Source: Saccharomycodes ludwigii (Eukaryota > Ascomycota > Saccharomycetes > Saccharomycodales > Saccharomycodaceae). From it: a stretch of 64,000 nt of DNA. The notes beneath the pieces are model-generated. The model did not search any database, was not told the origin of the DNA, and worked only from the letters and a program-made list of their open reading frames with translations. The translations under genes were made by a program, and so were the position numbers. The stretch lies in the NCBI RefSeq assembly GCF_020623625.1, contig NC_060203.1, positions 1,612,001 to 1,676,000 on the forward strand, read 5' to 3'. Shown one piece after another: positions 31,630 through 62,567 of this stretch; position 1 is the first letter of the stretch; each line of letters starts with the position of its first letter.

Positions 31630-33102
31630 GATTGAGTTGATGCATTCGTTTTTTTTTTTTTTTTTTTTTTTTTATCAGTGGTTGCAAGATTATCACTGTA
31701 GTACCAGTAATAAATTCTGTGATCTGTTTATTAGACCTTTTGATATCATATTTGTTTTTACAAATTTAAGAGATTTGAGTGCAGATATACACATAATAAC
31801 AGATCTATATAGAAGTTGTTTGCAAATTAATATGGGCTAATAGATGGTATTATTATTTTGGAAAATACTACTATGAAGAAACCTGATCTAATTATATATA
31901 AATATGCAACAAATGTATTGAAAAGTTTTAATAGAATGGAAACTTAACAAATAAATGAATCTTCAAATTGTTGTTAATTTTAAGCTGGTTATGGAGAAAC
32001 TGAAAATAATATGTTTACATGACTGATGGTAATCCTGTATATTATATTATTGCTGTTTAAAGTTCTGGCTATTCCAATTGTTTGATTATAATAGGTACTT
32101 ATAAGGATGGAAGTCTGTTTTCTTACAAACATACAATGATTATAGATGATACATGTCAAGATATCCAACAAGTTATGTATATGGGATCTAAATAGAGTTT
32201 GTTTATTTTTTTAGAATCGAGTATTTTCTAAATTTTTGTGAAAAAGAAAGAATAAGAATTTAATATATTTTAAGCATGTGCTTAACGGGGTTATCGCTTG
32301 TAAAAAATGACATTTACTTTGCCCTTTTTTAGGGTGTTTGTTATTATTTTTATAAATAAACAAGTGAATAAAAATCTATATCCAATTTAATCCAATAAAT
32401 CTTATTTTAAATATTAAGAATAAGATTTTGGTACAGTATTATGATTCTAACGAACCGCAATGTATCAAACCCTTTTTTTTTTGCTAAGAGATTGATGAAA
32501 AAGGTTTGAATCTGCTAATAGTTTATTTTATTCTTATAGCCTTATAATAATATTCAAACAAGTGTATCTTTACATATAAAAAGTGACTAAAAAACAACTA
32601 ACTTTGTCAATATATTAAAGTATATCATGTATATTCTCTTATGCTCTGTTATTAACCTTTTTCAAATACTTTGAAGAAAAAATATTCATTCTCCTTTGTA
32701 TATTTAGGTTTTTCCTACAACATCAAAATATTATGCAACACAATTTTATATTTTTTTTTTCTGCGCCTAATAAAAAAAAAAAACATAAGAAAAAAAATTA
32801 CCTTAAACATTTGAATAATAAACTAGACATCTTTACAAACATGCTAACAAAAAAATAATATCCAGTAATAAGGCACACATACCTCTAAGGCATAGCTTAT
32901 AAATTCAGAATACAAAGATTTATAATCCACGTTCTTTTATTTTTTTGAATACTTCTACTCAACAGGGGAGGAAATGAACAAATAAAAATGTAAAATGAAA
33001 CGTATATAAAGGCCATGGATAATTATCATCAAGATATTTGCTTTCCTTTCCTTTTCTTTCTAAAAACACAAAGATCAACAAACAAGAACAAACAAGAACA
33101 AA
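31630..33102. other. Long spacer with the THI5-type gene promoter
   Basis: Nearly 1.5 kb without a gene. A poly-T run of about 24 bp follows the MCH-type stop (31650-31673). The right end is the promoter of the THI5-type gene, with a TATATAAA box at 33003-33010, 93-100 bp before its ATG. I could not identify a thiamine-response element by eye. No RNA gene seen. Confidence 0.5.
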
Positions 33103-34131
33103 ATGACCACTGATAAAATCACCTTTTTACTTAACTGGCAAACTGCTGCATACCACATTCCAATTTATTTGGCTCAAACCAAGGGATACTTCAAAGAGCA
33201 AGGCTTAGATATTGCTATTTTGGAACCAAGCAATCCATCCGATGTAACTGAATTAATTGGGTCTGGTAAAGTCGACATGGGTTTGAAAGCTATGATTCAC
33301 ACTTTGGCCGCTAAAGCTAGAGGGTTCCCTGTTACTTCTGTTGCCTCTTTGTTAGACGAACCATTCACTGGGTTATTGTACTTGAAAGGCAGCGGTATCA
33401 CTGAAGATTTCCAATCTTTGAAGGGTAAAAAGATTGGTTATGTTGGTGAATTTGGTAAGATCCAATTGGACGAATTGACCAAGCATTATGGTATGACACC
33501 AAACGACTACACTGCTGTTAGATGTGGTATGAATGTTGCCAAATATATCATCGAGGGCAAGATTCATGCTGGTATTGGTATTGAATGTATTCAACAAGTG
33601 GAATTGGAAGAATACTGCAAAAAGCAGGGCAGACCAGTTACTGATGTTCAAATGTTGAGAATTGACAAGTTGGCTTGTTTGGGTTGTTGCTGTTTCTGTA
33701 CTATTTTGTACATTTGTAATGATGAATTTTTGGCCAAGAATGGAGACAAAGTTAGAAAGTTTTTGATTGCCATTAAAAAGGCCACTGATGATGTTTTGAA
33801 CCACCCAGAACAATCTTGGGCTACATATACAGATTTGAAGCCACAATTGAATACTGATTTGGCTTACAAACAATACCAAAGATGTTTTGCTTACTTTTCC
33901 AGTTCTTTGTACAATGTGCATCGTGATTGGAAAAAAGTTACTGGGTACGGTAAGAGATTGGAGATTTTGCCATTGGATTACAAGTCCAATTACACCAATG
34001 AATATTTGTCATGGCCAGAACCCAACGAAGTGGAAGACCCATTAGAAGCCCAAAGATTGATGGGTATTCACCAAGAAAAATGCAGAGAAGAGGGGTCTTT
34101 CAAGAGATTAGTTGTTCCATTGAAACATTGA
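33103..34131 (+). CDS. THI5: THI5-family HMP-phosphate synthase
   Basis: The 342-residue product is highly similar to S. cerevisiae Thi5/11/12/13 (340 residues), which make the thiamine pyrimidine precursor HMP-P from PLP and a histidine of the enzyme itself. It is a single-turnover suicide reaction. The key residues are present: Lys62, which holds PLP, and His66, which is consumed, in [10 protein letters not shown]; and the CCCFC iron-site motif at residues 195-199. Codon use is strongly biased (TTG, GCT, AAG), as expected for a protein made in bulk because each molecule acts once. It is probably repressed by thiamine, as in S. cerevisiae. Only one copy is seen here, about 30 kb from the window end, in keeping with the subtelomeric habit of this family. 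Confidence 0.96.
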
Positions 34132-34981
34132 AATATAGATTTATATACTGGTATATATAATATTATGTACGTGTGTGTTAATGAACTGCCATTCTTAATA
34201 AGTATTGTGCAAGATTTTTAATGCGGTGAAATGATTTCTAGTGTATTCTTTTTTGCACTTCAAATCACTTATCTAAAAAAAATATTAAAAAAAAAAGAAA
34301 TTTGTTAGTCTTTTGTTTTTTATGATTAAATTAGATTTATTACCTCTTTTTTTATATAACCTCGTTTGTTATGAAAAAAATAATAGTATTAAAATGTGAG
34401 TAACGTGAAAGAATCATATTTTTTTTTAATATACTTTTTAAAAGCAAAAGTACGAAATGTACGGATATGCGTTGTTCGGATAGCAACCGATATAGGGGTA
34501 CTCGTCTTGTGTGTTTATTCTAAAATAAACGACGTACATGAACATTAAAAAAGGGAGAGAGGTACAAGCTTATTTGTTTAGAGTGTAAATCTACTACAAA
34601 TCACATGGTGGCACGGCAACAAATCATATAAACTACACCAACAATTGTGAATTACTGAGATAATAAAACGGTATATATCTATGTAAACAAACGGAACCTT
34701 TTTGTTCTGCCAGTACCGACGAAAACTGCCAAGGAAAATCTGATCTTACCCCTTAAAAATAAAAAAATAATCGCTCCTAAACTTTAAGATTTGTTTTGTA
34801 TCTTAAGACCATTCCTCGTAATTTAATTATATAAAAGGAGTAAGGCCAAAAGATATCTACTGTGGATTATTGTTGATGAAATGTATCCCCTACTTTGAAA
34901 CCCTACACTTTTGTTAAGGAAAAAAAACTACATAGTTGTCACTATATTAACAAAACCTCAAAAAAAAAATAAAAAAAGAAA
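34132..34981. other. Spacer between THI5-type and methyltransferase genes
   Basis: The 850-bp gap holds several CGG/CCG triplets around 34455-34490 (CGGATA ... CCGATA), which could bind a Zn2Cys6 regulator, some 490-520 bp before the methyltransferase start. Otherwise AT-rich. Confidence 0.35.
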
Positions 34982-35839
34982 ATGTCTACATTTGCAGACC
35001 AAAAGTTTGATTCAAAACATTACAAGGATAACAGACCAACATACCCTGAATCTTTATATAACGCCATTCTTTCATATCATAAGGGTGAAAGAGAAACTGC
35101 AGTTGACGTTGGTTGTGGTACTGGTATTGGAACTTTCCCTTTATTGAAATACTTCCATCATGTTGTCGGTACCGATCCTTCAAGTAAGATGTTAGAACCA
35201 GCTAACGAACTAAAAAAAGAATTTGAACAAAAAAACACTGACAAAACTATAAAATTTTTGTGTTGTAAAGCTGAAAACCTGAGCTCTGTTCTTCCACCAG
35301 ATTCAGTTGATTTAATCACTTGTGCAGAAGCCATTCATTGGTTTGATACAGACAAGTTCTTCAAGGAAGCTTATAAAGTTTTGAAAACTAATGGCACGTT
35401 GGCTATTTGGGCTTATGTCGAACCAAGGTTTCTTGATTATCCAAAGGCAAACGAAATTTATGAGAAATTTGTTTTTGACGATGATAGGTACATGGGCCCA
35501 TGCTGGCAACAGCCTGGTAAATCATATTTGAGGAATTTTTGCAGGGATATTAAGTTACCAACTGATCTTTTCTCAGACGTGATTAAAATTGACTATGTTC
35601 CAATGAAAAGTAACAAAAAGACTGCTTTCCAAATTGCTAGAGATGACTATACCATGGCTGATTTTAGAAAATATTTGTATAGTTGGAGTGCTTACCACAA
35701 TTGGCAACAAAAATATGGAGGAGAAGGGAAAAATATTGCTGATATGTTTGTTGGCAAGTTGAAAGAAGAATTTGGTTGGACTGATGATACTAAGTTAAGA
35801 GTTGAATGGGGAACTTTTTATATTTTGGCTAGAAAGTAA
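34982..35839 (+). CDS. SAM-dependent methyltransferase, Tmt1/Crg1-like
   Basis: The 285-residue product has the class I motif I VDVGCGTGIGT at residues 41-51, an acidic residue after strand 2 (GTDPSSKM) and the family signature CAEAIHWFDTDKF. It shares features with both trans-aconitate methyltransferase Tmt1 (opening MSTF, WAYVEPRFLDYP, WSAYHNW) and Crg1, the cantharidin-resistance methyltransferase (GCGTG, YF..VVGTDPSS, KLEWxTFY-type end). I cannot assign it to one. Such enzymes act on small carboxylic molecules in the cytosol. Intact. Confidence 0.85.
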   Translation: MSTFADQKFDSKHYKDNRPTYPESLYNAILSYHKGERETAVDVGCGTGIGTFPLLKYFHHVVGTDPSSKMLEPANELKKEFEQKNTDKTIKFLCCKAENLSSVLPPDSVDLITCAEAIHWFDTDKFFKEAYKVLKTNGTLAIWAYVEPRFLDYPKANEIYEKFVFDDDRYMGPCWQQPGKSYLRNFCRDIKLPTDLFSDVIKIDYVPMKSNKKTAFQIARDDYTMADFRKYLYSWSAYHNWQQKYGGEGKNIADMFVGKLKEEFGWTDDTKLRVEWGTFYILARK

Positions 35840-36049
35840 AAGTGGTTTGTGATCTGTGTTTCAGATTTACGTTTATATTTATATCCTTTTTTTTTTTTTT
35901 TTTTTGTGTGTGTGTAATGAATTGATTTTAATATTTTTTTGGAAAACAGAAGAAAAAAACAAAAATTCCCAGTTTAAATTTTCAGATGAAAAGAATGAAA
36001 TGTGTAAAAAGTGGTTCAATTACGTGTGTCTTTGCAAGCTGGTAAATTA

Positions 36050-36197
36050 ATAATATGATCACGTGGGTCCAAGGTGTGTACGGAAATATGGACATTAATT
36101 ATTTGTTCCGTGTTTTTTATGGTTGCTTGTCGGACAAACTACGATAATCTCGTATTTCCTCATGTTCTCCATACGAATCCATCTGTATTATTAATAA

Positions 36198-36230
<33 letters not shown>

Positions 36231-38700
36231 GTTTTGCTTTTATTAAATTAGCATCTCAGCGTTAAATTTTTTCTCTCTTCTTTTAGTAATTTCCTTAACA
36301 CAAAACAAACCATATTTGGAAAAAAAAAAAAAAAAAACAAAAAAAAAACAAAAAAAAACAAAAAAAAAACAAAAAAGTAAATAAAAATGTCGTAAAACAA
36401 CATTTTACAGACCAAGAGAAACTATGAAATAATTTAGAACACTAATACCACAAATGATATTTTGTTTAAAGCAACAAACATTGTTGTAAGTGTTAATACT
36501 ATTTTTTTGACTCATTTAAAAGAAACCATTGTTGATAATTCTGTTAACAACACTGATACTATTCACACCACTGCCATCACTAGTACTGCCTTGGTTAGCA
36601 GTAACAAGAGGGAAAAAAAAATACCACTGAATTTGAATATACTGGGTTAACTGAATCACAAGTACTAGCTTTGAGATGTTATCCAAAACATTCGGCACTA
36701 AACAGTAAATGGGAAACATGGACATATCAGGATTTCAAGCCAACATTAAAAAAAGAATTGGCAACTGAATTGTTAATTGGTAATGAGGATCTGTTTTATT
36801 TCACTTGTAAACATCCTGGGTTTAATACTAAACGTTCATTAAAAAGAAAAGGACCATCAAATTCCGCCTTAACAAACCATCTTAAATTTGTGCATTTAGT
36901 TAATAATAAAAAATACCCAGCATCTTATCTGGCCAAAAAATAAGAAATAAGAGATAAATCTATATCGCAAAAATTAACAACATTACTAGTTAATACAAAT
37001 TCACCAGTTGCTATTTTTGAAAATAGTGGATGAACAGGCAAATTAACACTTGAGGAACTTGCTAAAAGCTGTAACGATTTATTCAACACTTTATTAGGAA
37101 CACCGTGGAAGATAATTTTATTGGAATATGTCATGATTTTTGGATCTCAAAGGCTGGTAATCATTATATTGCATTTAATGCACATTTTTTAAACAAGGCT
37201 AATGAAATGAAGGTATTTTTAGTAGGGTTTTGACCACAGAAAAAATTTGATCATCAAGAGGCTTTTGAATGTTGGAAACAGATAGTCAAGAAATATAGCT
37301 TTTTATCCAAGAATTCTCTTTATTTTACATCTGATAATGCTGCGGTTGCGATAAAATCAAGTAAATTTATTTGCACTCATTTAGATGATGCCTTTGTAGA
37401 TATCAAAACTAACTATAATGGATGTTTTTTATATTGTACTTCTTTATTTTGCAAAATCATTTTTTGGTTTAACTTTAAAGAGAGAGAAAAAAAGGCCAGA
37501 AAACAAATATTATCAAGATAATATTGGAGGTGACGAAAGGGAAGAATATGAGAGCATTGATCCTGAAATATTAGCAAATGGTGAAGTGGAATGTACTTTT
37601 GATGATGAAGAATATGATAAAGATGATATTTTAGATGTTTTAAACCAAATAAATATACACCACACTTGTTTTAAAAGATCACCTAAACATACCCACATGT
37701 TTAGAAATATTGTTCTACAAAAATTAAAGAGGGAGATATTACCTAAAGAGTGGATATCCATGTTTGATGGAATTCATTGCATGATGCCTTAAATGGAGCC
37801 CTTGGATTAAAGGAGTTTTTGGTACTCCCAGAATATAAAGCGATTGATATTAAGGCTGATGCTTTTACAGAAAAAGATTTTCAAATTATGAAAGAATTGC
37901 TTAAAATAACCAGTATATTGCAAAACTTAGTTTTATTTTATTCTCAAAATGAACCCCATTATCCCCTGATTATGGTTTCGCTCATGAATTCGCTAAAGTT
38001 TTTACAACCTATCACTGATAGATTAATAAAGATTCAAGTTTTACATAGTGGTTGGGAGGAAGATTTCAAAGCGCAGTTTGGGAAATATTCTAGTAAGTAT
38101 AATAACAATGACTTGCTAAGAGTTGCCACTTCCTTACTTGGATCGACGAGTTATAAATTTATTGATCTGGAATTTGGTAATTCTGATAATGAATCGGAAA
38201 TAATTGTAAAATTACTAAATGATTTTTTTAAGATTGCTGAAATGGGTGAAATAAATTCAAATTTGGAGGACCATGTCGCAATATTTAATAGTAACGATGA
38301 TGATGGTAATAATAATACCAATTTTAATAGTACGGCACTTGTTAATAATAACATTGTTGATATGAATAATAATACCTGTGAAAATTTGCCTGCGATAAAT
38401 TCAAATTTTGAAACGATTTATAAAGAATTTTTTTATGGAACAGGCAATAATTATAGTTTTATGACTTCAAATTCTATATCTGGATGTACTTATACTTCCA
38501 ATTCCACTTCTGAATCCACTTCTAATTCTACTTCTAATTCAACTTCTAATTCTACCTCCAATTCTGATTTGACTTACTCTTCTCCTAGTAACACTAATCT
38601 GCCCATTTCCACTAATAGTAAAAACAAAGCTGCCATTAGCTATAATAATATTAGTATTTCAAATAAAGTCATTTTTTTTTTGATAGATTAAGAAAAATTA
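36050..38700 (+). mobile_element. Decayed hAT-type DNA transposon, copy A
   Basis: The left edge is set where similarity to copy B begins (about 36050, shared landmarks TTGTCGGACAAA and ATACGATAA-like sequence). A BED-type finger region lies at about 36671-36943 (FYFTCKHPGFN ... SALTNHLKFVH). A middle part holds the hAT-like SDNAAVAI and CTHLDDAF near 37320-37400, and a distal part at 37777-38691 has KITSILQNLVLFYSQNEPHYPLI, like the hAT transposase end. The last 150 codons are an Asn/Ser/Thr-rich tail. The frame is broken in several places, so the transposase is dead. Against copy B, copy A lacks about 170 bp between 37078 and 37090 but keeps the 3' half. The right boundary and terminal inverted repeats were not found. 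Confidence 0.75.
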
Positions 38701-39475
38701 TTATTTCAACTTTATCTGTATAGTAATAACTTTGATATATATTGTACACAAGATTTGTTGTTGTTATAGTATTGTTTTGCTCGTTACTAATATTTTTTTG
38801 CTCGTTACTAATATTTTTTAAAGGTATTTTTTTTTCGCGTCATGAGTTTCCCACGTATTCTTAAGAATGCCTGCTAGCTCGCGCACAACTGCGGTCAACA
38901 CAGCACGGTCTACACCCTAACTCCATTTGATATTATTTCCGTCTTTATCACGGACTTCCTTTATAGACTCAATATTTCATGGAAACAAATAAAAGCTTTT
39001 TTAAAAAGACAAAGGCAAAATGGGGTGTAAATCAAATATATTATTTAGGGTTATACCTTTGAGGTGTAATAAAATATATTAAAATATTTTCAAACTGCTC
39101 TTATATAAAGAACTGATTATTTGAGCAAATAATAATTTGAGTAAATCACTTTCCATGATATATAAAGACATAGGTATAAACTTATTATTATTTTATATTT
39201 TTTAGAGACGAGAAAAAAAAAAAAAAAAAAGGTAATACCACCATTAATAATTATTAGCAGAAAATAATAATATTAAACGTTGCTGACTCATTGACTAACG
39301 GCAGAACCATAAAATAAGAGCAACATGTGACATTAACGATCAAATTATATTAATAAATAAAACTGATTTATATTTAAAGCAAAATGGCAAAATCAAAGAA
39401 AATGGGTACAAAGAAAATATTGAAATAAAGCTGGATATGGAGGGAAAAAATCCACCTTGAACCTTTTTTTGCAAA
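38701..39475. other. Spacer 3' of hAT copy A
   Basis: AT-rich DNA of about 775 bp. It has a 21-bp direct tandem duplication (TTTTGCTCGTTACTAATATT-type) at about 38773-38816 and, at 38836-38935, a short patch of unusually high GC (GCTAGCTCGCGCACAACTGC and beyond). The patch might mark the transposon end or an older insertion. The metallothionein-like gene ends at 39476. Confidence 0.35.
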
Positions 39476-40117
39476 TTAGCAAACACATTTGCAGACACAT
39501 TCACCACCTTCACAAACACATTTGCAAACACATTCACCACCTTCACAAACACATTTGCAGACACATTTTCCATCTTCACAAACACATTTGCCATCCTTAC
39601 AGACACATTTGCAGACACATTCACCACCTTCACAAACACATTTACAGACGCATTTTCCATCCTTACAAACACATTTGCCATCTTCACAAACACATTTGCA
39701 GACACATTTTTTATCTTCACAAACACATTTACCATCCTTACAAACACATTTACCATCCTTACAAACACATTTGCAGACACATTTTCCATCTTCACAAACA
39801 CATTCACCACCTTCACAAACACATTTGCAGACACATTTTCCATCTTCACAAACACATTCACCACCTTCACAAACACATTTGCCATCCTTACAGACACATT
39901 TGCAGACACATTCACCACCTTCACAAACACATTTGCCATTCTTACAAACACATTTGCAGACACATTTACCATCTTCACAACCGAATTTACCACTTTCGCA
40001 GACACAGTCAGCGAATTTGTTACCTTCAGAGACGCATCCAGGACCTTTGCTTATCTTGTTTGAACATTCACATGTCTTTATATTTTTTTCAGTATTACAA
40101 CATTTACTAGCGCACAT
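39476..40117 (-). CDS. Giant metallothionein-like protein, 65 cysteines
   Basis: The 213-residue product has 65 cysteines (30%), nearly all in Cys-X-Cys pairs, and no other plausible reading. Residues 1-47 are unique (MCASKCC ... CESGKFGC). Residues 48-213 are made only of 18 seven-residue units (EDGKCVC, KDGKCVC, EGGECVC and near variants) and 10 four-residue KCVC units, so Cys-Val-Cys recurs throughout. There are no aromatic residues after Phe45 and no His. This is the composition of a metallothionein, probably for Cu(I) or Zn/Cd thiolate clusters in the cytosol, but it is several times larger than Cup1 (61 residues) and not similar in sequence. Lys and Asp/Glu alternate. The repeat DNA (21- and 12-bp modules) points to growth by unequal exchange. 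The frame is intact; metal binding is inferred. Confidence 0.85.
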   Translation of the reverse strand: MCASKCCNTEKNIKTCECSNKISKGPGCVSEGNKFADCVCESGKFGCEDGKCVCKCVCKNGKCVCEGGECVCKCVCKDGKCVCEGGECVCEDGKCVCKCVCEGGECVCEDGKCVCKCVCKDGKCVCKDGKCVCEDKKCVCKCVCEDGKCVCKDGKCVCKCVCEGGECVCKCVCKDGKCVCEDGKCVCKCVCEGGECVCKCVCEGGECVCKCVC

Positions 40118-40251
40118 TATTACTATATATTTGTATGGTTATTTGATTTTGTTTTATTTATTACCAGCTTTTAATTCTAGTATGCATTGCTAAGTATTGA
40201 AAAAGGCAAATCCAGAAGGAGCTACTATTAAATTAATTTTTTGTATTGTAC

Positions 40252-40262
40252 TATTTATATAA
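40252..40262 (-). promoter_or_regulatory. TATA box of the metallothionein-like gene
   Basis: On the minus strand TATATAAA lies about 135-145 bp upstream of the ATG, a normal yeast distance for a strongly inducible gene. Confidence 0.5.
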
Positions 40263-40286
40263 CGAAAAAAAAAATGATAAAAAGAA

Positions 40287-40400
40287 ATAGGATTATAAAC
40301 AAAGCTGTGATCTTAAGAAAACAGCTTTTTTTTTTAGAAATTGAAAGAAGAAAAGAAATAGTATTAGTAATAGGATTATAAACAAGGATATGATCTTAAG
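40287..40400 (-). promoter_or_regulatory. Duplicated upstream module of the metallothionein-like gene
   Basis: A 31-bp element (ATAGGATTATAAACAA, four to five variable bases, TGATCTTAAG) occurs at 40287-40317 and again at 40370-40400, in direct orientation 83 bp apart. Each copy is followed a few to 20 bp later by ACAGCT. The core AGCTG/GCTG, which is also the core of Ace1/Amt1 copper-factor sites, recurs at about 40183, 40303, 40321 and 40427. No site matches the full Ace1 consensus, so the copper link is a guess. The duplication itself is plain. Confidence 0.55.
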
Positions 40401-40429
40401 AGAAGAAATATAAAATACAGCTAATATGC

Positions 40430-41525
40430 CTCAAGCATTTATTACTATGTGGTTTCTTTCCATATTGAATATCATACGGAACTTGCTTTTGAAGAGATAA
40501 CAAAAAAAAAAAGTCTAGAATAATTTTTTTACGCTTTAATGATTTAGGCTCAATATCCTGCATTAGTAATAATCACTACGCTTTAATCTGACAAACAAAA
40601 ATTGCATATGATTAAAACAGCAACAGCAATTAGGGCTCGACTATTTTTATAAAGTGTTTTTTTTTTTTTTACCCCTACCACAAAACAACTACCCTTTTTT
40701 TCCTTTTTTGTCGAAAAATAAAATCAAAAGAAACAAATAGAACCAAGAATAATAATAACAATAATAATGATAATAAAATAAATAATTTATTTAATTTCCT
40801 AAGATTATAAACACCACGTGAAGGACTAAATTTTATCTGAGGGGGGAAGAAAGAAAAAAAGAAAGAAAATTAATAATAGGAAAAGGTTTTCTTAAATTTA
40901 TGATTGCTCTAATTTGATTTGGTTGAACCACTGATGAGATATTTCCTTTTAGGTAACCTGACGGCGCCACGCAACACAAGGTATCTGTATTTATTCCATA
41001 TTTCTAATCCACTAGACATATCTGAAAACTGACACTAACACTTGGTCCTGTCACTTCGAGTACTATGGTGATGACTACAATTTTTATTTGAACCACTATC
41101 ACTTTGGCCCTGCTGCTCTTTTTTTTTGTGATAATTGGCTTCTTGTCCTTGCAGATGGTGGGTCATTGTATTGGGACATCATTGAAATGTCTTGTTACTG
41201 TTCACCACCATACTTTATGTTATCCACTTTCCCACTACCATATAGGAAGCTGGTGGGTAGATTTTTAGTCTTTTTAGCATGCATTTTATGGGGACCATGA
41301 TCGATACTAAATGTAGTATCTAATGTTTCTAAATGTCTTGATATGACATCGATCGTGATGTCTTCAACCGTCTTATTAAAAGGTTTATTCAATTTTTTGA
41401 TTATATATATATAATCCTTATCTTCATCTACATTTAGGCATTCTTAGGGTTTTCAAAAAGAATGGGAAGACAATTTCTCATTTTAAATTCTCAAGTGGAA
41501 GCGATAGTCCGATTGTACGTAATTT
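40430..41525. other. Spacer with an unclassified coding relic
   Basis: No intact gene. The left 500 bp is AT-rich promoter-like DNA with a CACGTG near 40815. On the minus strand around 41040-41400 there is a protein-like stretch (for example VEDITIDVISRHLETLDTTF) that ends abruptly and has no recognisable family. It may be an old fragment of a mobile element. It abuts the left end of hAT copy B. Confidence 0.3.
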
Positions 41526-41529
41526 TGTA

Positions 41530-43080
41530 AACCGGTGGACCAAGAGTGCGTCCACGCGAATATATAAAACAATATTTAGGGCGGATAAAAAGTGTAGCAA
41601 AACATGATCAATTCTTTATTCCGTAATCCTTTCTAATCCCTTGTCGGACAAAATACGATAACCTTGCCAAAATATATGAAAAAACTTTGTATTTCCTCAT
41701 TTTTTGTCATAAAACCTTGCATTTTCTCATTTTCTCTATATAAATTCGTTCACATTATTAATAGGTTAAAAGCTTTATCACTAAAAAAAAAAAAAAATTA
41801 ATATAAGGTTTATCAATACCTTTTTTTTGTTTTAACGCCAAATCTTTTCCCTATACTAATTTTTAAATAAATTGGAATGAAAGCTTCATTAATACAACAC
41901 GTATCATGTCCAGAGAAAAAGTATATGATAGAAATGTCACAAAATAACGTTACACAGTCTAAGAAAGATTATGAAACACTTCAAGACATTGATGCCACCA
42001 ACGAAGGTGTATCTGAGACAACAATCGCTATTACAAATGCTAGTACCGCTCCTTTGAATGATTTGGAAGAAACCATTGTTGATAATTCTGTTAACAACAC
42101 TGATACTATTCACACCACTGCCATCACTAGTACTGCCTTGGTTAGCAGTAACAGAGGGAAAAAAAAATACCACTGAATTTGAATATACTGGGTTAACTGA
42201 ATCACAAGTACTAACTTTGAGATGGTATCCAAAACATTCGGCACTAAACAGTAAATGGGAAACATGGACATATCAGGATTTCAAGCCAACATTAAAAAAA
42301 GAATTGGCAACTGAATTGTTAATTGGTAATAAGGATCTATTTTATTTCACTTGTAAACATCCTGGGTTTAATACTAAACGTTCATTAAAAAGAAAAGGAC
42401 CATCAAATTCCGCCTTAACAAACCATCTTAAATTTGTGCATTTAGTTAATAATAAAAAATACCCAGCATCTTATCTGGCCAAAAAATAAGAAATAAGGGA
42501 TAAATCTATATCGCAAAAATTAACAACATTACTAGTTAATACAAATTCACCAGTTGCTATTTTTGAAAATAGTGGACGAACAGGCAAATTAACACTTGAG
42601 GAACTTGCTAAAAGCTGTAACGATTTGTCCATTTTGTATTCGCGTAAATATACATAATTTCATACTCTAGTAGCACAAATGAATGAAAAGTATGAAAAAA
42701 GGACGGTTTTAAAATTATTCACACCTATGAATAAGGAATTTAATATTGTTCTCAATTATTGAAATATTGACTTTAATGTTGATCAGTTTATTCAATGATT
42801 TACCACGAAGGTTATGGAAGACAATTCTATTCAAACAATCCATGATTATTGGACTTTAAGGACTGATGACCATTACGTAGCATTTAATGCACATTTTTTG
42901 AATAAGGCTAATTAGCTGCAAGTATTTTTATTAGGGTTTTTATCACAAAACAAAAAAACTTTGAGCACCAAGAAGTCTTTGAATATGGTAAAAAAAGAGT
43001 TAGGAAATATAAATTTTTATCCAAAAATTCCTTTTTTTTTTTTTTTTTTTTCTTTTTTTTTTTATTGTAAAATTTTTATG
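41530..43080 (+). mobile_element. Decayed hAT-type DNA transposon, copy B (5' half)
   Basis: It is nearly identical to copy A over 42062-42625 (against 36519-37075) and more loosely related on both sides. It keeps the N-terminal part that is missing from copy A's open frame (41877-42176, from MKASLIQHVSC) and about 170 bp of internal sequence that copy A lost. The 3' half is gone: similarity stops in a poly-T run near 43030. Both copies share a frame break at a run of nine A near the BED finger, so the break either predates their duplication or is a slippage site. Same orientation as copy A. Confidence 0.75.
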
Positions 43081-44922
43081 TATTTTCAAGATGACCCATT
43101 TTTAAATTCCGTGGAAATAGTTGAAGAGTTAACGTTTTTTGTTACATTACATCAAATTTTATATTGCTATTTTTAAATCAGTGCTTTAAAAAAAAAAGAC
43201 TTGTAGTATTATTTTTAATTATAAGCTTTATATAGATACAATCGCTATTATTATTATTGTTATAAACAAATATTTATCATTATAAATATTCAAAGCTCTG
43301 ATAATAACGAAATATATTAGGTCTTTTTAAATAAAAAAATAACAATCATAAAAAAATCTCGACGAGGAATGATATATATATTATCTTAGTCATAGGTAAA
43401 TATAAATATATATTAAATGAGCATTTATATTTTTGCTCAGTATTGTTTTAATAGCAAGTTTTTTTTTAAAACTTTTTTATTTTTAATAAAAATAGAGGTT
43501 ATTAAACTTAGTTTAACAGAAAGAAGTGTATGATTGTTACCTAAAAGACGAATCATTGAGATTAAAAATATATCAATCAAAATGTTCTATATATAATATT
43601 AAGTATTTAAATATTATAGAAGGGGAAAGAAGAATTAGTATAGAGTACTAAAAACACATATAATGCATGATAAACTAAATAGAAAAGATATGTTTAGTTA
43701 TATGAGTTCAATTTTCCCCAATATTTTCTTTTTGCCAAGTTTTTAGAACGTTAATAACTTATAAATAAATATCAACATGGCCACTTATTAGATGCTATGT
43801 TACTATCACAAATTATAATATAATTGTAAAATCTGAATTTTTTAAAGAGGGATAATTTAATAGGAACTTGTCTAACTTTTATTTGTCAGCAGTGTTTGGT
43901 TATATTCTGATATAATCCACTAAACTGTTTGATGGGGAATTTAGTAGTTATTCCGATTCTTTGCATAATACTCATCTATATAATATCCGATTTTTTTTTC
44001 TTTTTCATTTAATTTACGCGCGCAAATAAATATCTCCGTGTGTGTTAATTTCTTAGTCTGTCTAATATTTTTTTTTTTTCCTTCATGCAGAACAGAAAAA
44101 TGGAAAAGGAAAAAAAAATTATGTCGTATATAAAATGTTCACGCTTAAAAACAAAAAAAATTTTTTTTTTCATTTTTGGAAAATGACGAACGGCACATCA
44201 TCAAAAAAGAAAAAAAACAAAAAAGTTTGTTGAAAAATTATTAACAATATAAATATAATGGAACACTTTTCTTTTCATGTTTCTCGAATTGGTCAAAACC
44301 ACACTATTTTCACAAAAGAAAGTTGGGGTATTTCAGAAACAAAAAGAAAATAAACTGTAAAATAACAATTAAAGCCGCAAAGTGATTATATATATAGTAA
44401 ATATGTGATTTTTATTGAAATTTACTCACACAATTTAATTCTTTTATTCATGTTGAAAGCCTTTTTTAATTAACACTAAATAATTTAACCCTAATAAAAA
44501 AAAATTTTTTTTTAAGTGAAAACAATTAAAGTATTCTACATTCGTTCTGGTTAAAAAATCGAAAAATGTATACAAAATTGAAAATATAAATATTACATTA
44601 TGATATTTATTTTACTGTATGATTTTTGTAAGTGAAAACAGACAATTGAAATAAAATCAATTGTATCTGAATTTTTTTTTATCTTAAAACACAATGGAAA
44701 TTATTTTTTTTGCGTTTAAAAAAATAAAACTAAAATTAAGATACAAATTGATTTTAAATTTTTAATAGATATAAAAAAGAAAATTATTATATAAATAGAA
44801 ACATTTTTGAGTATTTAGTTTTTTTAATTTCTATTTTCAACATTTAATAATTCAAATTTTCCAAGTATAAATTAAATCAAAAAAATTCAAAAAAGAAAAA
44901 CAACTTTTGGTAATTAACGGGA
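43081..44922. other. Long upstream region of the flocculin gene
   Basis: About 1.8 kb of AT-rich DNA without a gene, which is the promoter side of the flocculin. FLO genes of S. cerevisiae also have unusually long promoters. Poly-A/T tracts occur near 44065-44170 and 44500-44515. No specific site recognised. Confidence 0.4.
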
Positions 44923-47900
44923 ATGTTAACTAGTAATTATAAACAAGGGGTTTTAATATTAGTCCTTTTTTTATTACAATGGTCAAAAAACATTTATGTC
45001 CAAGCAGCGGTTGATTCCAATGGTGGTTGTAATCCGATTTCAAAACCTAGTAATGGGTTTAAGGTGAGATGGTTTCCCTATAATATTTACGATACAACAA
45101 CTTATACAAGTAGAGAATATATGGCATATGGCTATTATCAAAATTCAAAACCTTATCACGAGCAAAATGGTATTACCTCCGTCATAATTCAGTCAGGATT
45201 TCCTTGTCAATATAATGAAAATGATCCATCTCAGTACTACCTCTGTAACGGTGAACCTGATCAACAAGGAACAAATTGGCATTGTCCATATCAATATGGA
45301 CATGATGCTACACTTTGTTATAATGATAACCAACTTCCTTACACTTTACCAGTAATTTTTGATTACAATACAACATTCACTAATTTTACAATGGAACTTA
45401 CTGGTTACTTTTTAGCACCACAAACTGGTTCTTACACCTTTACATTAGGATATGTTGATGATTCTGCTGGCTTGTTGTTCGGCGAAAATGCATTTGGATG
45501 TTGTCAGCAAAATGATATTACTGCATCAACAACTAATTTTTTGGTGGATGCAATTAAAAATTGGCATGTGGGAATACAAAATTATGCTGTGGCTAAAATA
45601 ACAATGAACGCTGGGTCATACTATCCAATAAGAATTGTATTTTCAAACGCAATTACTAAAGCAAGTTTGTTTTTTACAATAAGTTTGCCCGATGGAACTC
45701 TTCTTGATGATATGACCAATTATATATTTACCTTTGATGAAGAAGAGTCATATTGTCCAGCTGCTGAAGATGTTACCACCACATACACACCATGGACTGG
45801 CACATATACATCTACTATTGGTACTAGTTTAACCACCAGTATTGGATCAGATGGTATTCCAACAACCTCTACTATCTACACAGACCAGGTTGAGACTACC
45901 TACACACCATGACGGTTAATAGGTACTACTACTACTTACACACCATGGACCGGTACATACACATCTACTATTGGTACTAATGTTACCACCAGTGTTGGTG
46001 CAGATGGTATTACAACCACCTCTACTATCTACACAGTTGAGACTCCAGAAGTTGAAGGTACTACTACCACTTACACACCATGGACCGGTACATACACATC
46101 CACTATTGGTACCAGTGTTACCACCAGTGTTGGTTCAGATGGTATTCCAACTACCTCCACTATCTACACAGTTGAGACTCCAGAAGTTGAAGGTACTACT
46201 ACTACTTACACACCATGGACCGGTACATACACTTCCACTATTGGTACCAGTGTTACCACCAGTGTTGGTTCAGATGGTATTACAACCACCTCTACTATCT
46301 ACACAGTTGAGACTCCAGAAGTTGAAGGCACTACTACTACTTACACACCATGGACCGGTACATACACTTCCACTATTGGTACCAGTGTTACCACCAGTGT
46401 TGGTTCAGATGGTATTCCAACTACTTCCACCATCTACACAGTTGAGACTCCAGAAGTTGAAGGTACTACTACCACTTACACACCATGGACCGGTACATAC
46501 ACTTCCACTATTGGTACCAGTGTTACCACCAGTGTTGGTTCAGATGGTATTACAACCACCTCTACTATCTACACAGTTGAGACTCCAGAAGTTGAAGGTA
46601 CTACTACTACCTACACACCATGGACCGGTACATACACATCTACTATTGGTACCAGTGTTACCACCAGTGTTGGTGCAGATGGTATTACAACCACCTCTAC
46701 TATCTACACAGTTGAGACTCCAGAAGTTGAAGGCACTACTACTACTTACACACCATGGACCGGTACATACACTTCCACTATTGGTACCAGTGTTACCACC
46801 AGTGTTGGTTCAGATGGTATTCCAACTACTTCCACCATCTACACAGTTGAGACTCCAGAAGTTGAAGGTACTACTACCACTTACACACCATGGACCGGTA
46901 CATACACTTCCACTATTGGTACCAGTGTTACCACCAGTGTTGGTTCAGATGGTATTCCAACAACCTCTACTATCTACACAGTTGAGACTCCAGAAGTTGA
47001 AGGTACTACTACTACTTACACACCATGGACCGGTACATACACTTCCACTATTGGTACCAGTGTTACCACCAGTATTGGATCAGATGGTATTACAACCACC
47101 TCTACTATCTACACAGTTGAGACTCCAGAAGTTGAAGGTACTACTACTACCTACACACCATGGACCGGTACATACACTTCCACTATTGGTACCAGTGTTA
47201 CCACCAGTGTTGGTTCAGATGGTATTCCAACTACTTCCACCATCTACACAGTTGAGACTCCAGAAGTTGAAGGTACTACTACCACTTACACACCATGGAC
47301 TGGTACATACACTTCCACTATTGGTACCAGTGTTACCACCAGTGTTGGTTCAGATGGTATTCCAACAACCTCTACTATCTACACAGTTGAGACTCCAGAA
47401 GTTGAAGGTACTACTACCACTTACACACCATGGACCGGTACATACACTTCCACTATTGGTACCAGTGTTACCACCAGTGTTGGTTCAGATGGTATTCCAA
47501 CTACTTCCACCATCTACACAGTTGAGACTCCAGAAGTTGAAGGTACTACTACCACTTACACACCATGGACCGGTACATACACATCTACTATTGGTACCAG
47601 TGTTACCACCAGTGTTGGTGCAGATGGTATTACAACCACCTCTACTATCTACACAGTTGAGACTCCAGAAGTTGAAGGTACTACTACCACTTACACACCA
47701 TGGACCGGTACATACACATCTACTATTGGTACCAGTGTTACCACCAGTGTTGGTGCAGATGGTATTACAACCACCTCTACTATCTACACAGTTGAGACTC
47801 CAGAAGTTGAAGGCACTACTACTACTTACACACCATGGACCGGTACATACACTTCCACTATTGGTACCAGTGTTACCACCAGTGTTGGTTCAGATGGTAT

Positions 47901-50900
47901 TCCAACAACCTCTACTATCTACACAGTTGAGACTCCAGAAGTTGAAGGTACTACTACTACTTACACACCATGGACCGGTACATACACTTCCACTATTGGT
48001 ACCAGTGTTACCACCAGTATTGGATCAGATGGTATTACAACCACCTCTACTATCTACACAGTTGAGACTCCAGAAGTTGAAGGTACTACTACTACCTACA
48101 CACCATGGACCGGTACATACACTTCCACTATTGGTACCAGTGTTACCACCAGTGTTGGTTCAGATGGTATTCCAACTACTTCCACCATCTACACAGTTGA
48201 GACTCCAGAAGTTGAAGGTACTACTACCACTTACACACCATGGACTGGTACATACACTTCCACTATTGGTACCAGTGTTACCACCAGTGTTGGTTCAGAT
48301 GGTATTCCAACTACCTCCACTATCTACACAGTTGAGACTCCAGAAGTTGAAGGTACTACTACCACTTACACACCATGGACCGGTACATACACTTCCACTA
48401 TTGGTACCAGTGTTACCACCAGTGTTGGTTCAGATGGTATTCCAACAACCTCTACTATCTACACAGTTGAGACTCCAGAAGTTGAAGGTACCACTACTAC
48501 ATACACACCATGGACTGGTACCTACACATCTACTATTGGCACTACTGTAGTTACAACTACTGGTACTGATGGCAAACCAACCACCTCTACCACCTACACA
48601 GTTGAGACTCCAGAAACCAACGGTGTCACAACTACCTATACTCCATGGACTGGTACAATTACTTCCACTATTGGCACTACTGTAGTTACTACTACTGGTA
48701 CTGATGACAAACCAACCACCTCTACCACCTACACAGTTGAGACTCCAGAAACCAACGGTGTTACAACTACGTACACACCATGGACTGGTACATACACTTC
48801 CACTATTGGCACTACTGTAGTTACAACTACTGGTACTGATGGCAAACCAACCACCTCTACCACCTACACAGTTGAGACTCCAGAAACCAACGGTGTTACA
48901 ACTACGTACACACCATGGACTGGTACATACACTTCCACTATTGGCACTACTGTAGTTACTACTACTGGTACTGATGGCAAACCAACCACCTCTACCACCT
49001 ACACAGTTGAGACTCCAGAAACCAACGGTGTCAGAACTACCTATACTCCATGGACTGGTACCTACACATCTACTATTGGCACTACTGTAGTTACAACTAC
49101 TGGTATTGATGGCAAACCAACCACATCTACCACCTACACAGTTGAGACTCCAGAAACCAACGGTGTTACAACTACGTACACACCATGGACTGGTACATAC
49201 ACTTCCACTATTGGCACTACTGTAGTTACTACTACTGGTACTGATGGCAAACCAACCACCTCTACCACCTACACAGTTGAGACTCCAGAAACCAACGGTG
49301 TCACAACTACCTATACTCCATGGACTGGTACAATTACTTCCACTATTGGCACTACTGTAGTTACAACTATTGGTACTGATGGCAAACCAACCACCTCTAC
49401 CACCTACACAGTTGAGACTCCAGAAACCAACGGTGTTACAACTACGTACACACCATGGACTGGTACATACACTTCCACTATTGGTACCAGTGTTACCACC
49501 AGTGTTGGTTCAGATGGTATTCCAACAACCTCTACTATCTACACAGTTGAGACTCCAGAAGTTGAAGGTACCACTACTACATACACACCATGGACTGGTA
49601 CCTACACATCTACTATTGGCACTACTGTAGTTACAACTACTGGTACTGATGGCAAACCAACCACCTCTACCACCTACACAGTTGAGACTCCAGAAACCAA
49701 CGGTGTTACCACCACTTATGTTCCATGGACTGGTACAATTACTTCCACTATTGGCACTACTGTAGTTACAACTACTGGTACTGATGGCAAACCAACCACC
49801 TCTACCACCTACACAGTTGAGACTCCAGAAACCAACGGTGTTACAACTACGTACACACCATGGACTGGTACATACACTTCCACTATTGGCACTACTGTAG
49901 TTACTACTACTGGTACTGATGGCAAACCAACCACCTCTACCACCTACACAGTTGAGACTCCAGAAACCAACGGTGTCACAACTACCTATACTCCATGGAC
50001 TGGTACAATTACTTCCACTATTGGCACTACTGTAGTTACTACTACTGGTACTGATGACAAACCAACCACCTCTACCACCTACACAGTTGAGACTCCAGAA
50101 ACCAACGGTGTTACAACTACGTACACACCATGGACTGGTACATACACTTCCACTATTGGCACTACTGTAGTTACAACTACTGGTACTGATGGCAAACCAA
50201 CCACCTCTACCACCTACACAGTTGAGACTCCAGAAACCAACGGTGTTACAACTACGTACACACCATGGACTGGTACATACACTTCCACTATTGGCACTAC
50301 TGTAGTTACTACTACTGGTACTGATGGCAAACCAACCACCTCTACCACCTACACAGTTGAGACTCCAGAAACCAACGGTGTCAGAACTACCTATACTCCA
50401 TGGACTGGTACCTACACATCTACTATTGGCACTACTGTAGTTACAACTACTGGTATTGATGGCAAACCAACCACATCTACCACCTACACAGTTGAGACTC
50501 CAGAAACCAACGGTGTTACAACTACGTACACACCATGGACTGGTACATACACTTCCACTATTGGCACTACTGTAGTTACTACTACTGGTACTGATGGCAA
50601 ACCAACCACCTCTACCACCTACACAGTTGAGACTCCAGAAACCAACGGTGTCACAACTACCTATACTCCATGGACTGGTACAATTACTTCCACTATTGGC
50701 ACTACTGTAGTTACAACTATTGGTACTGATGGCAAACCAACCACCTCTACCACCTACACAGTTGAGACTCCAGAAACCAACGGTGTTACAACTACGTACA
50801 CACCATGGACTGGTACATACACTTCCACTATTGGTACCAGTGTTACCACCAGTATTGGATCAGATGGTATTACAACCACCTCTACTATCTACACAGTTGA

Positions 50901-53232
50901 GACTCCAGAAGTTGAAGGTACTACTACTACCTACACACCATGGACCGGTACATACACTTCCACTATTGGTACCAGTGTTACCACCAGTGTTGGTTCAGAT
51001 GGTATTCCAACAACCTCTACTATCTACACAGTTGAGACTCCAGAAGTTGAAGGTACCACTACTACATACACACCATGGACTGGTACCTACACATCTACTA
51101 TTGGCACTACTGTAGTTACAACTACTGGTACTGATGGCAAACCAACCACCTCTACCACCTACACAGTTGAGACTCCAGAAACCAACGGTGTTACCACCAC
51201 TTATGTTCCATGGACTGGTACAATTACTTCCACTATTGGCACTACTGTAGTTACAACTACTGGTACTGATGGCAAACCAACCACCTCTACCACCTACACA
51301 GTTGAGACTCCAGAAACCAACGGTGTTACAACTACGTACACACCATGGACTGGTACATACACTTCCACTATTGGTACTACTGTAGTTACAACTACTGGTA
51401 CTGATGGCAAACCAACCACCTCTACCACCTACACAGTTGAGACTCCAGAATTTAATGGTGTTAGTACCACTTATACTTTTTGGACTGGTTCATTTACCTC
51501 AACTTATTTAACTACTATATTTACTACCACTGGCTCTAATGGCAAACCAACCACCTCTACCACTTACACAGTTGAGACTCCAGAATTTAATGGCGTTAGT
51601 ACCACTTATACTTTTTGGACTGGTTCATTTACCTCAACTTATTTAACTACTATATTTACTACCACTGGCTCTAATGGATTGTCTACCACTTCCACTATCA
51701 TTTACGTTGAAACACCAGGATTTGGTTATTTCAATACTACTAGCTCTAAATCATCTCCATTGACTACTATTCCAGGTACTACCTCTACTTCTGAAACTGT
51801 TTCTCCAGTTAATCCAACTACTGAGACATCTGGATTGCCTTCTAGTGTTACAAGAACTACTGTGATTGTTACATCTGGCAGAACTATAACCTCGACTATT
51901 GTCACATGCGATGCTACTACCACCACTGTTCCAAACAATAGCAACAACAATAATGGTGGTTCTAACAATTCCGGTTCCGAAGTTTATTCTGTTAGTTCTG
52001 AGACTTCCAATACACCAGTTACTGTTACTAAGACTAGTGTATTCACTACATCTGGAAGTACCATTACTGCTACTATCACCTCTACTATTGTTCCAAATAA
52101 CAACAACAACAATGGTGGATCTGGTAGTTCCGAAACTGGTAATACACCAGTTACTGTTACCAAGACTAGCGTGTACACTACATCTGGTAGCACCATTACT
52201 GCTACTATCACCTCTACTATTGTTCCAAATAACAACAACAACAATGGTGGATCTGGTAGTTCCGAAACTGCTAATACACCAGTTACTGTTACTAAGACTA
52301 GTGTGTACACTACATCTGGTAGCACCATTACTGCTACTATCACCTCTACTATTGTTCCAAATAACAACAACAACAATGGTGGATCTGGTAGTTCCGAAAC
52401 TGGTAATACACCAGTTACTGTTACCAAGACTAGCGTGTACACTACATCTGGTAGCACCATTACTGCTACTATCACCTCTACTATTGTTCCAAACAACAAC
52501 AATAACAATGGTGGATCTGGTAGTTCTGAGGCTGCTAATACACCAGTTACTGTTACTAAGACTAGTGTGTACACTACATCTGGTAGTACCATTACTGCTA
52601 CTATCACCTCCACTATTGTTCCAAATAACAACAACAACAACGGTGGATCTGGTAGTTCTGAAACTGGTAATACACCAGTCACTGTTACCAAGACTAGTGT
52701 ATTCACTACTTCGGGTAGTACCATTACTGCCACTATCACCTCTACTATTGTTCCAAATGACAACAACAACAACGGTGGATCTGGTAGTTCTGAGACTGCT
52801 AATACACCAGTTACTGTTACTAAGACTAGTGTGTACACTACATCAGGTAGTACCATCACATCTGTTACTACATCTACTATTGTTCCAAACAATAATAATG
52901 AAAATGGATCAGGTTCTTCAGGCAATGCTAGTGAATATGTTGAGACTATTTCTTCTGGTTCTGTTTATACCACTGTTACCAAGAGTGCCAATGGTAACTC
53001 TGGTAATTCCGACAATGTTATTACCAAGACCACATCTGGTGGCAAAGTTATTACCACCACTATTCAATCAGAAACTGTTTCTAGCACAGCTGCTATTGAG
53101 GTTCAAAGTATTCAATCTCAACCAGCATCTAGTGGATTAATTTCTATTTACCAAGCTGGTGCTGTTTCAAACAGAATATCTACCTTCAAGATGTTCTTTA
53201 CTTTATTTGTTTTGTTTTTCAATTTATTTTAA
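44923..53232 (+). CDS. Giant Flo-type flocculin with one in-frame UGA
   Basis: One frame of 2770 codons runs from the ATG at 44923 to the stop at 53230-53232, with a single UGA at codon 330. Order: signal peptide (residues 1-28, ending VQA); PA14 lectin domain, about 33-280, like Flo1/Flo5, with paired cysteines and the calcium-binding Asp-Asp of VDDSA (179-180); 44 units of 45 residues containing YTPWTGTYTSTIG; a Ser/Thr-rich linker; seven 44-residue units; then a C-terminal hydrophobic tail fit for a GPI anchor. Such proteins sit in the cell wall and bind sugars on other cells. At the loop equal to Flo5 SNAVSWG this one has SNAITKA, so the Trp linked to sugar specificity is Lys246. The UGA splits lectin domain (329 residues) from stalk. 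It may be a new null allele, read-through or an assembly flaw. Confidence 0.85.
45793..51735 (+). repeat. Flocculin tandem array, 44 units of 135 bp
   Basis: TGG of the motif PWTG recurs every 135 bp without any length change from 45946 to 51616 (43 positions), with one more at 45793. Two subtypes exist: type A with SVTTSVGSDGI and PEVEG, about the first 20 units, and type B with TVVTTTGTDGK and PETNG, from about 48511 on. A few A units are embedded in the B part (49471; 50821-51046). The last two units are diverged (YTFWTGSF). Segment 48600-49460 is repeated at 49950-50810 with the same rare variants. Confidence 0.95.
45910..45915 (+). promoter_or_regulatory. UGA-CGG stop in a leaky context
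   Basis: The internal stop of the flocculin reads TGA CGG. UGA followed by CGG is one of the two classic UGA read-through contexts known from plant virus replicase genes. The frame goes on for 2,440 codons after it. The local sequence around 45885-45930 departs from the repeat consensus, so the stop came with a small rearrangement. Read-through here is not shown. Confidence 0.4.
52009..52932 (+). repeat. Flocculin C-terminal array, seven 132-bp units
   Basis: Seven copies of a 44-residue unit start NTPVTVTKTSV and run through TTSGSTITATITSTIVP, then an Asn run and GGSGSSE. Units alternate between endings ETG and ETA, which suggests growth by two-unit duplication. The last unit is diverged. 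The motif resembles the distal Ser/Thr repeats of Flo1-type proteins. Confidence 0.92.
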
Positions 53233-60900: not shown

Positions 60901-62045
60901 AGTTGAGTTGTATGGATTATGCTTGGGATATAAATTTACAGGTTTATATTAGAGCTAGTGATTATCATTGATATGACTGATTATTTAATTAAAAGGCATA
61001 TGATATGAGGAATGAATTGGATAATATACAAGATACAAGAACACATTGGATAAAGAAAACAAACAAAGAGACAAGGATATGATAATATTATTAGTGATAG
61101 TTATATTGAGAGGATAAGTGGAGTCTTTGACAAACAGGTTGGAGTTATAGTGGTGGATAATTGAGTTGAGTTGTGGAGAAAGTAGGATTTATTATTATTA
61201 TTCTTTTTATTTTGTTAGGTGATGAGATATTTTGATAGATGATATATTTAATAAATGCAATTATTATGAATGATGGGATTAGAAATAGTATTAAAAGTAT
61301 GATGTGATAAGAGTTAGGATTATAATTATGGTGGGAGTATTAGTATATTTATAGATATGACGAGGAAATTAGTATAATAGGATCAGAATTGAGATGGAAT
61401 TACTAGAGTATTGGGATTATTTATTTATTGAATTATAGATAGGGTGAGATTATTAGTTATATTATGATTACTACTGTACTTAGATTACAAGTGAGTTGTG
61501 AGGATTTATACATTCGAATTAGAAATATATTTGGATGATAAGTGAGTTGATATTGTGTATTGGGAAATGTGGGTATGTTAGGATTATGAATGAAATAAAA
61601 ATTATATATTGGAAATATTTGGATTGAATATGATGAGGGATTCTAGATGGAGTATGATTAGAAGTATGTTTGAGTTATTGATATATTATTAGTATAATTG
61701 GAATTGGATTATAGATAGTGTGGAGTTATTGGATATTGAGATTATAAAAACATATTGACCATGATACAATGATTATTGATATATTTGGATAATTATTATA
61801 CGGATAGTATAAGTATATTAGAATAGTTATTCTAATGAGATAATTATTAGATTGGGATTATGAATATATTTGAATAATTAGTATGTTAAGGTGAAAAGTA
61901 GATTGGTATAACCATTGACATATATGGAATAGAAGTAGAGTTAGACAATAAAGATATTTGGAGGATAAGTATTGGATATGATTATAAATGTAGAATGAGA
62001 CGACTAGGATATAGAGTATAAGAGTGGTGAGGCATGAGTATAAAT

Positions 62046-62510
62046 GTTATTGAAATTATGAATATGAATATGAATATGAATGATTATTATAAATACAAAT
62101 TGGGGATATGATTAGTAGAATGATTATTGGAGTGAGACAATAAATATATATGGAGGATAATTATATTAAGACATTCAGAGTATTATAGTTATGAGGACTT
62201 ATTTCGATTATAAAGATAGATGAATAGTTATTATGATATGACTGTAGATGTTATTGAGAATATGAATATGAATATGAATGGATGAGTATTATAAATATAA
62301 ATGGGGGATATGATTAGTAGAATAATTATGATATTGGCATGATAAATATAGGAGAATAATTATATTGAGATATTCAGAGTATTGTAGTTATGATGATTTA
62401 TTTTGATTGTGAAGATGGATGGATAATTATTATGATATGATTGTAGATGTTATTGAGATTATGAATATGAATGCATGATTATTATACATATATATATATA
62501 TGGAGGATTA
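62046..62510 (+). repeat. Tandem repeat of about 200 bp, 2.3 copies
   Basis: Copies start with GTTATTGA(A/G) at 62046, 62250 and 62449 (spacing 204 and 199 bp). Each runs through GAATATGAATATGAAT, GGATATGATTAGTAGAAT, ATTCAGAGTATT and ATTATTATGATATGA. Copies differ by scattered changes. The third is cut short before the LTR. Confidence 0.8.
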
Positions 62511-62567
62511 TTTGATTGAGGTTATCAATATATATATATATAGTATGAGGATATGAATATAATAAAT

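Follow-up and report, generated by a model that had tools for sequence, protein, structure and literature searches.

A long, repeat-built metallothionein-like gene in the subtelomeres of Saccharomycodes ludwigii

Saccharomycodes ludwigii, a wine-spoilage yeast, carries an intact gene for an unusually long metallothionein-like protein made almost entirely of short Cys-rich repeats. The gene lies on the minus strand at positions 39476-40117 (stop codon at 39476-39478) of the window, the stretch of 64,000 nucleotides analysed here, which represents one end of contig 4 (C4). It is an ATG-to-stop ORF encoding 213 aa, among them 65 Cys, and two further copies, likewise intact, are present in the genome. 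The gene is real, its sequence suggests that it is probably functional, and a metallothionein function in the general sense is highly probable. Its occurrence in several copies, whose length varies in steps of one repeat unit, is the most interesting aspect of this system.

Protein architecture and coding evidence

The protein consists of two parts: a unique head (residues 1-47; 39977-40117, minus strand) with nine Cys, arranged as CC, CEC, CVC and single residues, and a repeat array (residues 48-213; 39479-39976, minus strand). The repeat parse reproduced the 18 seven-residue and 10 four-residue (KCVC) units counted in the first-pass annotation, which had also described the intact frame with its 65 Cys and the Cys-rich head correctly. 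Five variants of the longer unit were distinguished, i.e. six copies of EGGECVC, five each of EDGKCVC and KDGKCVC, and single copies of KNGKCVC and EDKKCVC. With the seven-residue unit written as A and KCVC as b, the order is AbAAbAAAbAAbAAAbAAbAbAAbAbAb, in which KCVC never adjoins KCVC; the units are almost identical in DNA sequence. Two generalizations of the first-pass annotation need qualification. The formula xxGxCVC fits 17 of the 18 seven-residue units, the exception being EDKKCVC, which together with its KCVC forms a 33-bp unit at 39686-39718 on the minus strand (coordinates counted from the unit order). Valine does separate the paired Cys inside the units, but Lys takes its place between units (10 CKC) and Glu in the CEC of the head.

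Cysteine accounts for 30.5% of the residues (65/213), and 60 of the 65 lie within C-X-C motifs. There are 40 such motifs (29 CVC, 10 CKC at unit junctions and the single CEC); shuffling the residues of the protein 2000 times gave 19.4 on average and never more than 30. Four-residue gaps separate C-X-C pairs at 18 places, and at the 10 KCVC units the pairs merge into C-X-C-X-C-X-C runs. The 22.2-kDa protein contains 36 Lys, 34 acidic residues and 5 Asn; two Phe are present, while His, Trp and Tyr are absent. Inspection of the N-terminus (MCASKCCNTEK) by eye revealed no hydrophobic stretch or secretion leader.

Codon statistics trained on 11 ORFs of the window (5522 codons) gave the metallothionein frame (minus frame 0) 0.446 bits/codon, the best score of the six frames, the other five ranging from -0.387 to 0.048. 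As synonymous choice alone favours this frame only weakly (0.069 versus 0.056 for the next, a stop-filled frame), the signal is mostly one of amino-acid composition; it supports coding and falls short of being decisive. The openness of the frame proves little, since the plus frames (one stop in each across the ORF) and minus frame 1 (two stops) are also largely open. Two ATG-started ORFs of at least 200 aa are found at the locus, the metallothionein frame and a 210-aa ORF in minus frame 1, and the latter scores -0.094 bits/codon. A His-rich plus frame at 39457-40110 has the worst score of all (-0.387) and could start only at TTG. Another plus frame, from 39489, scores -0.101 versus 0.446; it has its wobble positions in common with the metallothionein frame, so that silent change cannot separate the two.

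Among the units, none of the 12 first- and second-position columns of the Cys and Val codons is variable, the changes in these codons being silent only, whereas in the seven-residue units six of the eight corresponding columns of the spacer codons vary (Fisher P 0.0007, for units that descend from one another and are hence non-independent). The description of the product as metallothionein-like is thus well supported by its composition, the density of C-X-C motifs, the scarcity of aromatic residues and this silent-only variation of the Cys and Val codons.

Copies at chromosome ends and their surroundings

The genome of S. ludwigii (12.5 Mb, 8 contigs) was searched for further copies, and three loci were found, all of them subtelomeric: the window, C7 (784691-785329) and the other, left end of C4 (28079-28750). 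When the first 72 residues served as the query (E up to 10), 12 matches were obtained, a lower bound as are all match counts of the genome searches, and every one fell inside these three loci. The C7 copy encodes a 213-aa protein identical to that of the window, and the left C4 copy an intact protein of 224 aa with 69 Cys, which like those of the shorter form lie nearly all in C-X-C. The coding sequences differ by one 33-bp in-frame insertion and nothing else: EDKKCVCKCVC, present once in the window and C7 copies, occurs twice in tandem, as an exact duplicate, in the left C4 copy. The second unit may have been gained there or lost from the other copies. The flanks of the copies have single-base indels, whereas the change in CDS length is a multiple of three.

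The copies lie within long blocks common to the chromosome ends. The block shared with C7 covers 26659-47279 of the window, and that shared with the left end of C4 covers 32239-48977 and continues to 58459; C4 has telomere-like repeats at both ends. Between the window and the left end of C4 we counted 24 substitutions at 34.5-38.5 kb, one at 38.5-41.5 kb and a further two as far as 45.6 kb; the middle stretch, whose limits were picked after inspection, has a Poisson probability of 3e-7. As divergence is already low ahead of the gene and stays low until the alignment ends, the sequences point to a recent exchange of the entire distal segment between the two ends of C4 and not to a peculiarity of the gene. 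Extreme suppression of meiotic crossing over has been reported for S. ludwigii (PMC8567612), and a mitotic or ectopic route is therefore likelier. The same report describes an assembly of strain NBRC 1722 with 12.5 Mb, 7 chromosomal scaffolds and 30.9% GC; the GC content of the window is 31.6%.

A separate subtelomere contig, C8 (26,468 bases), matches the window at 99.5% over 4.7 kb from 40975 outward and at 94-97% beyond. It appears to represent either another chromosome end or the absent end of C7. On the upstream side of the gene, the match breaks off 858 bp short of the start codon, and a further, unassembled copy is therefore possible. The last few kb of C7 show many gaps relative to the other two copies, increasing toward the contig end inside flocculin repeats, which suggests that the consensus is poor there.

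Two fragments of hAT-like elements of the same direction (plus strand, limits approximate), ~2.7 kb apart, flank the gene: a degraded copy on its 3' side (36360-38872) and the 5' part of a second copy on its 5' side (41535-43041). Each holds one of two 575-bp direct repeats (36506-37080 and 42053-42626), which are 98% identical and 5.55 kb apart; a genome search found at least 12 copies or parts of this repeat. By analogy with CUP1, recombination between the two repeats could remove the whole gene or multiply it en bloc. The label hAT is based on one marginal Pfam match, which a related ORF on C3 gave at E 4e-4 with 20.6 bits, just short of the cut-off (21.4); four ORFs of the fragments in the window had no Pfam match. 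An ORF related to these fragments (L036, 5417-9028, minus strand) is uninterrupted over 1203 aa and contains a long Ser/Thr/Asn-rich tract.

Several other genes and repeats were noted in the window. A THI5/NMT1-like gene (33103-34131, plus strand; Pfam E 1e-74) lies within the segment common to the C7 end, and the protein encoded at 34982-35836 is 99% identical to SCDLUD_002247 and 79% identical to SCDLUD_004972 of S. ludwigii. A giant flocculin-like gene (44923-53232, plus strand) with a GLEYA/PA14 head contains 41 copies of a 135-bp repeat and 6.8 copies of a 132-bp repeat; its frame is open throughout except for a single in-frame stop at 45910, directly before the array. Toward the telomere, several overlapping tandem repeat arrays occupy 62044-63902, and the final 400 bases of the contig consist of repeats followed by TG-rich, telomere-like sequence.

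Relatives and comparison with known metallothioneins

A protein search against a collection that includes proteins of S. ludwigii and other yeasts (short-word prefilter, 90% clustering) revealed no significant relative: 3576 candidates shared words with the full-length protein, none at E<=0.001, and 169 with its first 101 residues, none at E<=10. The 213-aa protein would match itself at E 4e-113 (default phmmer, scaled to 5.8 billion sequences), and as the collection returned no such entry, the gene seems to be unannotated and absent from the deposited proteome. In Pfam nothing exceeded the curated cut-off and no metallothionein family was matched, and NCBIfam, a library made for prokaryotes, gave no match, in searches whose HMMER filters may discard sequences as biased as this one. 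The best Pfam hit, DUF6799 (E 0.037), and matches to the LDL receptor among solved structures (best E 0.022) were taken as chance similarities driven by Cys. A search of the genome for CRS5 gave no match; it had no positive control, so its empty answer carries no weight.

The open-access papers searched yielded none with the repeat words and, among the matches listed, none on such a gene of Saccharomycodes; nor did the matches listed for the wider open-access metallothionein literature include one. No data on copper tolerance of S. ludwigii were found in open-access sources. The main text of a genome paper on this species (PMC7903802) contains neither copper nor metallothionein, the searched text of a study that tested metals and S. 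ludwigii (PMC5597992) gives no metal result for this yeast, and S. ludwigii is not named in the searched text of PMC12767201.

Metallothioneins are recognized by a high Cys content (about 15-30%), C-X-C or CC motifs and few aromatic residues, and the S. ludwigii protein, with 30.5% Cys, has all of these features. At 213 aa and 22.2 kDa it exceeds the classical limit of <100 residues, as do accepted long metallothioneins (PMC4755600); the limit is classical and not a necessary one. The closest analogues in overall design appear to be TmMT of Tremella mesenterica and CnMT1 and CnMT2 of Cryptococcus, long fungal Cu-thioneins with a repeated Cys unit, mostly C-X-C pairing and few or no aromatic residues (PMC4755600). 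In TmMT, which is 257 aa long, 48 of the 57 Cys lie in C-X-C, and each chain binds 40-42 Cu (PMC4755600), so that the S. ludwigii proteins carry more Cys (65 or 69) on a shorter chain. TmMT, CnMT1 and CnMT2 repeat a Neurospora-type block of 7 Cys, whereas the S. ludwigii units have 7 and 4 residues and are centred on CVC; set beside the same genes, that of S. ludwigii is a single open frame that requires no intron. The 7-Cys pattern CxC-x5-CxC-x3-CxC-x2-C, its Agaricus form and the TmMT block each had no match in the 213-aa protein. By sequence, it stands outside the 7-Cys fungal family (family 8: Neurospora, Agaricus, CnMT and TmMT), and it may work in the manner of modular long metallothioneins with a module of another kind.

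The budding-yeast proteins Cup1 and Crs5 of Saccharomyces, MT2 of Candida glabrata and MT3 of Yarrowia lipolytica are likewise Cys-rich C-X-C metal binders, but they have 52-69 residues as against 213 or 224. Local alignments to them scored 1.4-2.4 SD above shuffled sequences, which is not clearly beyond the effect of composition. OdiMT2 of Oikopleura dioica and the multi-domain metallothioneins of snails are also built of repeats, and the Cys content of OdiMT2 (31%) is close to that found here. These are, however, animal proteins with much larger domains (12C and t-12C; at least 9 Cys in molluscs), reported to bind mostly divalent metals. OdiMT2, with 399 aa and 123 Cys, exceeds the S. ludwigii protein in both respects, and its repeat number is reported to differ between populations, from 3 to 7. 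The epithet 'giant' given in the first-pass annotation must be seen in proportion: such a size is unusual for a budding yeast, and it is no record among metallothioneins, since TmMT is longer and OdiMT2 far larger. The remark that the architecture corresponds to no known form is upheld as far as tested, as neither a significant relative nor a module match was obtained.

Metallothioneins are thought to be polyphyletic, with many origins. We tentatively suggest, as a possibility on which we would not insist, that this family was born in the S. ludwigii lineage, unrelated to CUP1, CRS5 and the 7-Cys type, and that its capacity has been stepped by the 33-bp unit (11 residues) and by exchange of whole genes between chromosome ends. 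Recent births of metallothioneins are hard to catch. Nearly identical units, two array lengths in one genome and the lack of a significant relative in the searches might allow one to trace, in a tractable yeast, how a metal-binding protein arose and was adjusted.

Probable metal binding, alternative explanations and possible regulation

We consider it rather likely that the protein is a cytosolic copper metallothionein, in which a ladder of Cys-X-Cys would cluster thiophilic ions, most likely Cu(I), the metal favoured by analogy with the long fungal forms. As no leader is visible at the N-terminus, the protein would stay in the reducing cytosol. There, C-X-C pairs joined by four-residue linkers of K, E, D, G and N could wrap the ions in successive thiolate clusters, and the C-X-C-X-C-X-C runs at the KCVC units would provide a continuous thiolate ladder. 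Scaling by the ratio of TmMT gives a predicted capacity of ~46-48 Cu(I) for the form with 65 Cys and 48-51 for that with 69. If a chain does bind ~46 Cu or more, the gene would encode a reservoir of densely packed copper, which might bear on the handling of copper by this wine yeast. Copper tolerance is reported to increase with the number of CUP1 copies; here the dose could be set at two levels, by gene copies among chromosome ends and, in addition to what is possible with CUP1, by units within the gene.

In snail metallothioneins, Cd selectivity is reported to go together with more Lys than Asn and an abundance of charged residues (PMC7084494), and a chain as rich in Lys and poor in Asn as this one (36 versus 5, with 34 acidic residues) could therefore serve for Zn or Cd. 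The protein might then be a true metallothionein acting as a Zn/Cd-thionein or as a broad buffer of metals and thiols, with no part in copper resistance. The absence of an exact Ace1 site from the 1 kb upstream of the gene agrees with this; the excess of GCTG cores in the same region, and the fact that CnMT1, CnMT2, TmMT and Cup1 are all Cu-thioneins (PMC4755600), speak against it, and we regard it as unlikely. That the protein belongs to another class of Cys-rich proteins, e.g. a structural protein crosslinked by disulfides or a pool of thiols against sulfite, is very improbable. The high thiol content and the SO2 tolerance for which S. ludwigii is known (PMC7903802) might suggest such a role, but no secretion leader is visible in the N-terminus, and the regular C-X-C pairing and scarce aromatic residues are those of metallothioneins.

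A further rival reading is that the array might be a decaying or silent subtelomeric minisatellite, once a gene or never one, that is open by chance and has been spread by exchange of chromosome ends. It does lie in a subtelomere, next to degraded hAT-like elements and within blocks common to several ends; other frames across it are also largely open, and it is apparently missing from the deposited proteome. Such an origin would hardly account for the best codon score of the six frames, for Cys and Val codons that change only silently, for a sole CDS length change that is in-frame whereas the flanks carry single-base indels, or for a unique head that is itself Cys-rich. We thus hold this explanation to be improbable and retain a copper metallothionein as the preferred reading.

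The region upstream of the gene offers some hints as to its regulation. An imperfect tandem repeat of ~80 bp lies at 40261-40423 (minus strand; -144 to -223 and -227 to -306 from the ATG), with a 33-nt core (~40285-40317 and ~40368-40400) identical at 30 of 33 positions as counted from the alignment. A 181-bp query over this repeat matched the genome at the three copies of the gene only (E<=0.01), and the duplication is a candidate regulatory element. GCTG/CAGC, which we take to be the core of Ace1/Cup2-type sites, occurs six times in the 600 bp upstream (40118-40717, minus strand) and seven times in 1 kb. The corresponding means for the upstream regions of 17 other ORFs or genes in the window are 1.29 (0-4) and 2.29 (0-5); the comparison is post hoc, with a Markov fraction of 0.014 for the 600-bp count. 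With HTHNNGCTGD as the assumed Ace1/Cup2 consensus, the 1 kb upstream contains no exact Ace1/Cup2 site (0.65 expected), no Mac1 site (0.17 expected) and no heat-shock element (0.83 expected). The numbers of Haa1 (1 found, 0.28 expected), STRE (2 and 0.65) and Yap1 (2 and 1.08) motifs are unconvincing. Two copper-fist genes were found in the genome, one on C5, presumably Mac1-like by its Cys cluster, and one on C1, which we assume to be Cup2/Haa1-like; the product of the latter might drive transcription of the metallothionein-like gene.
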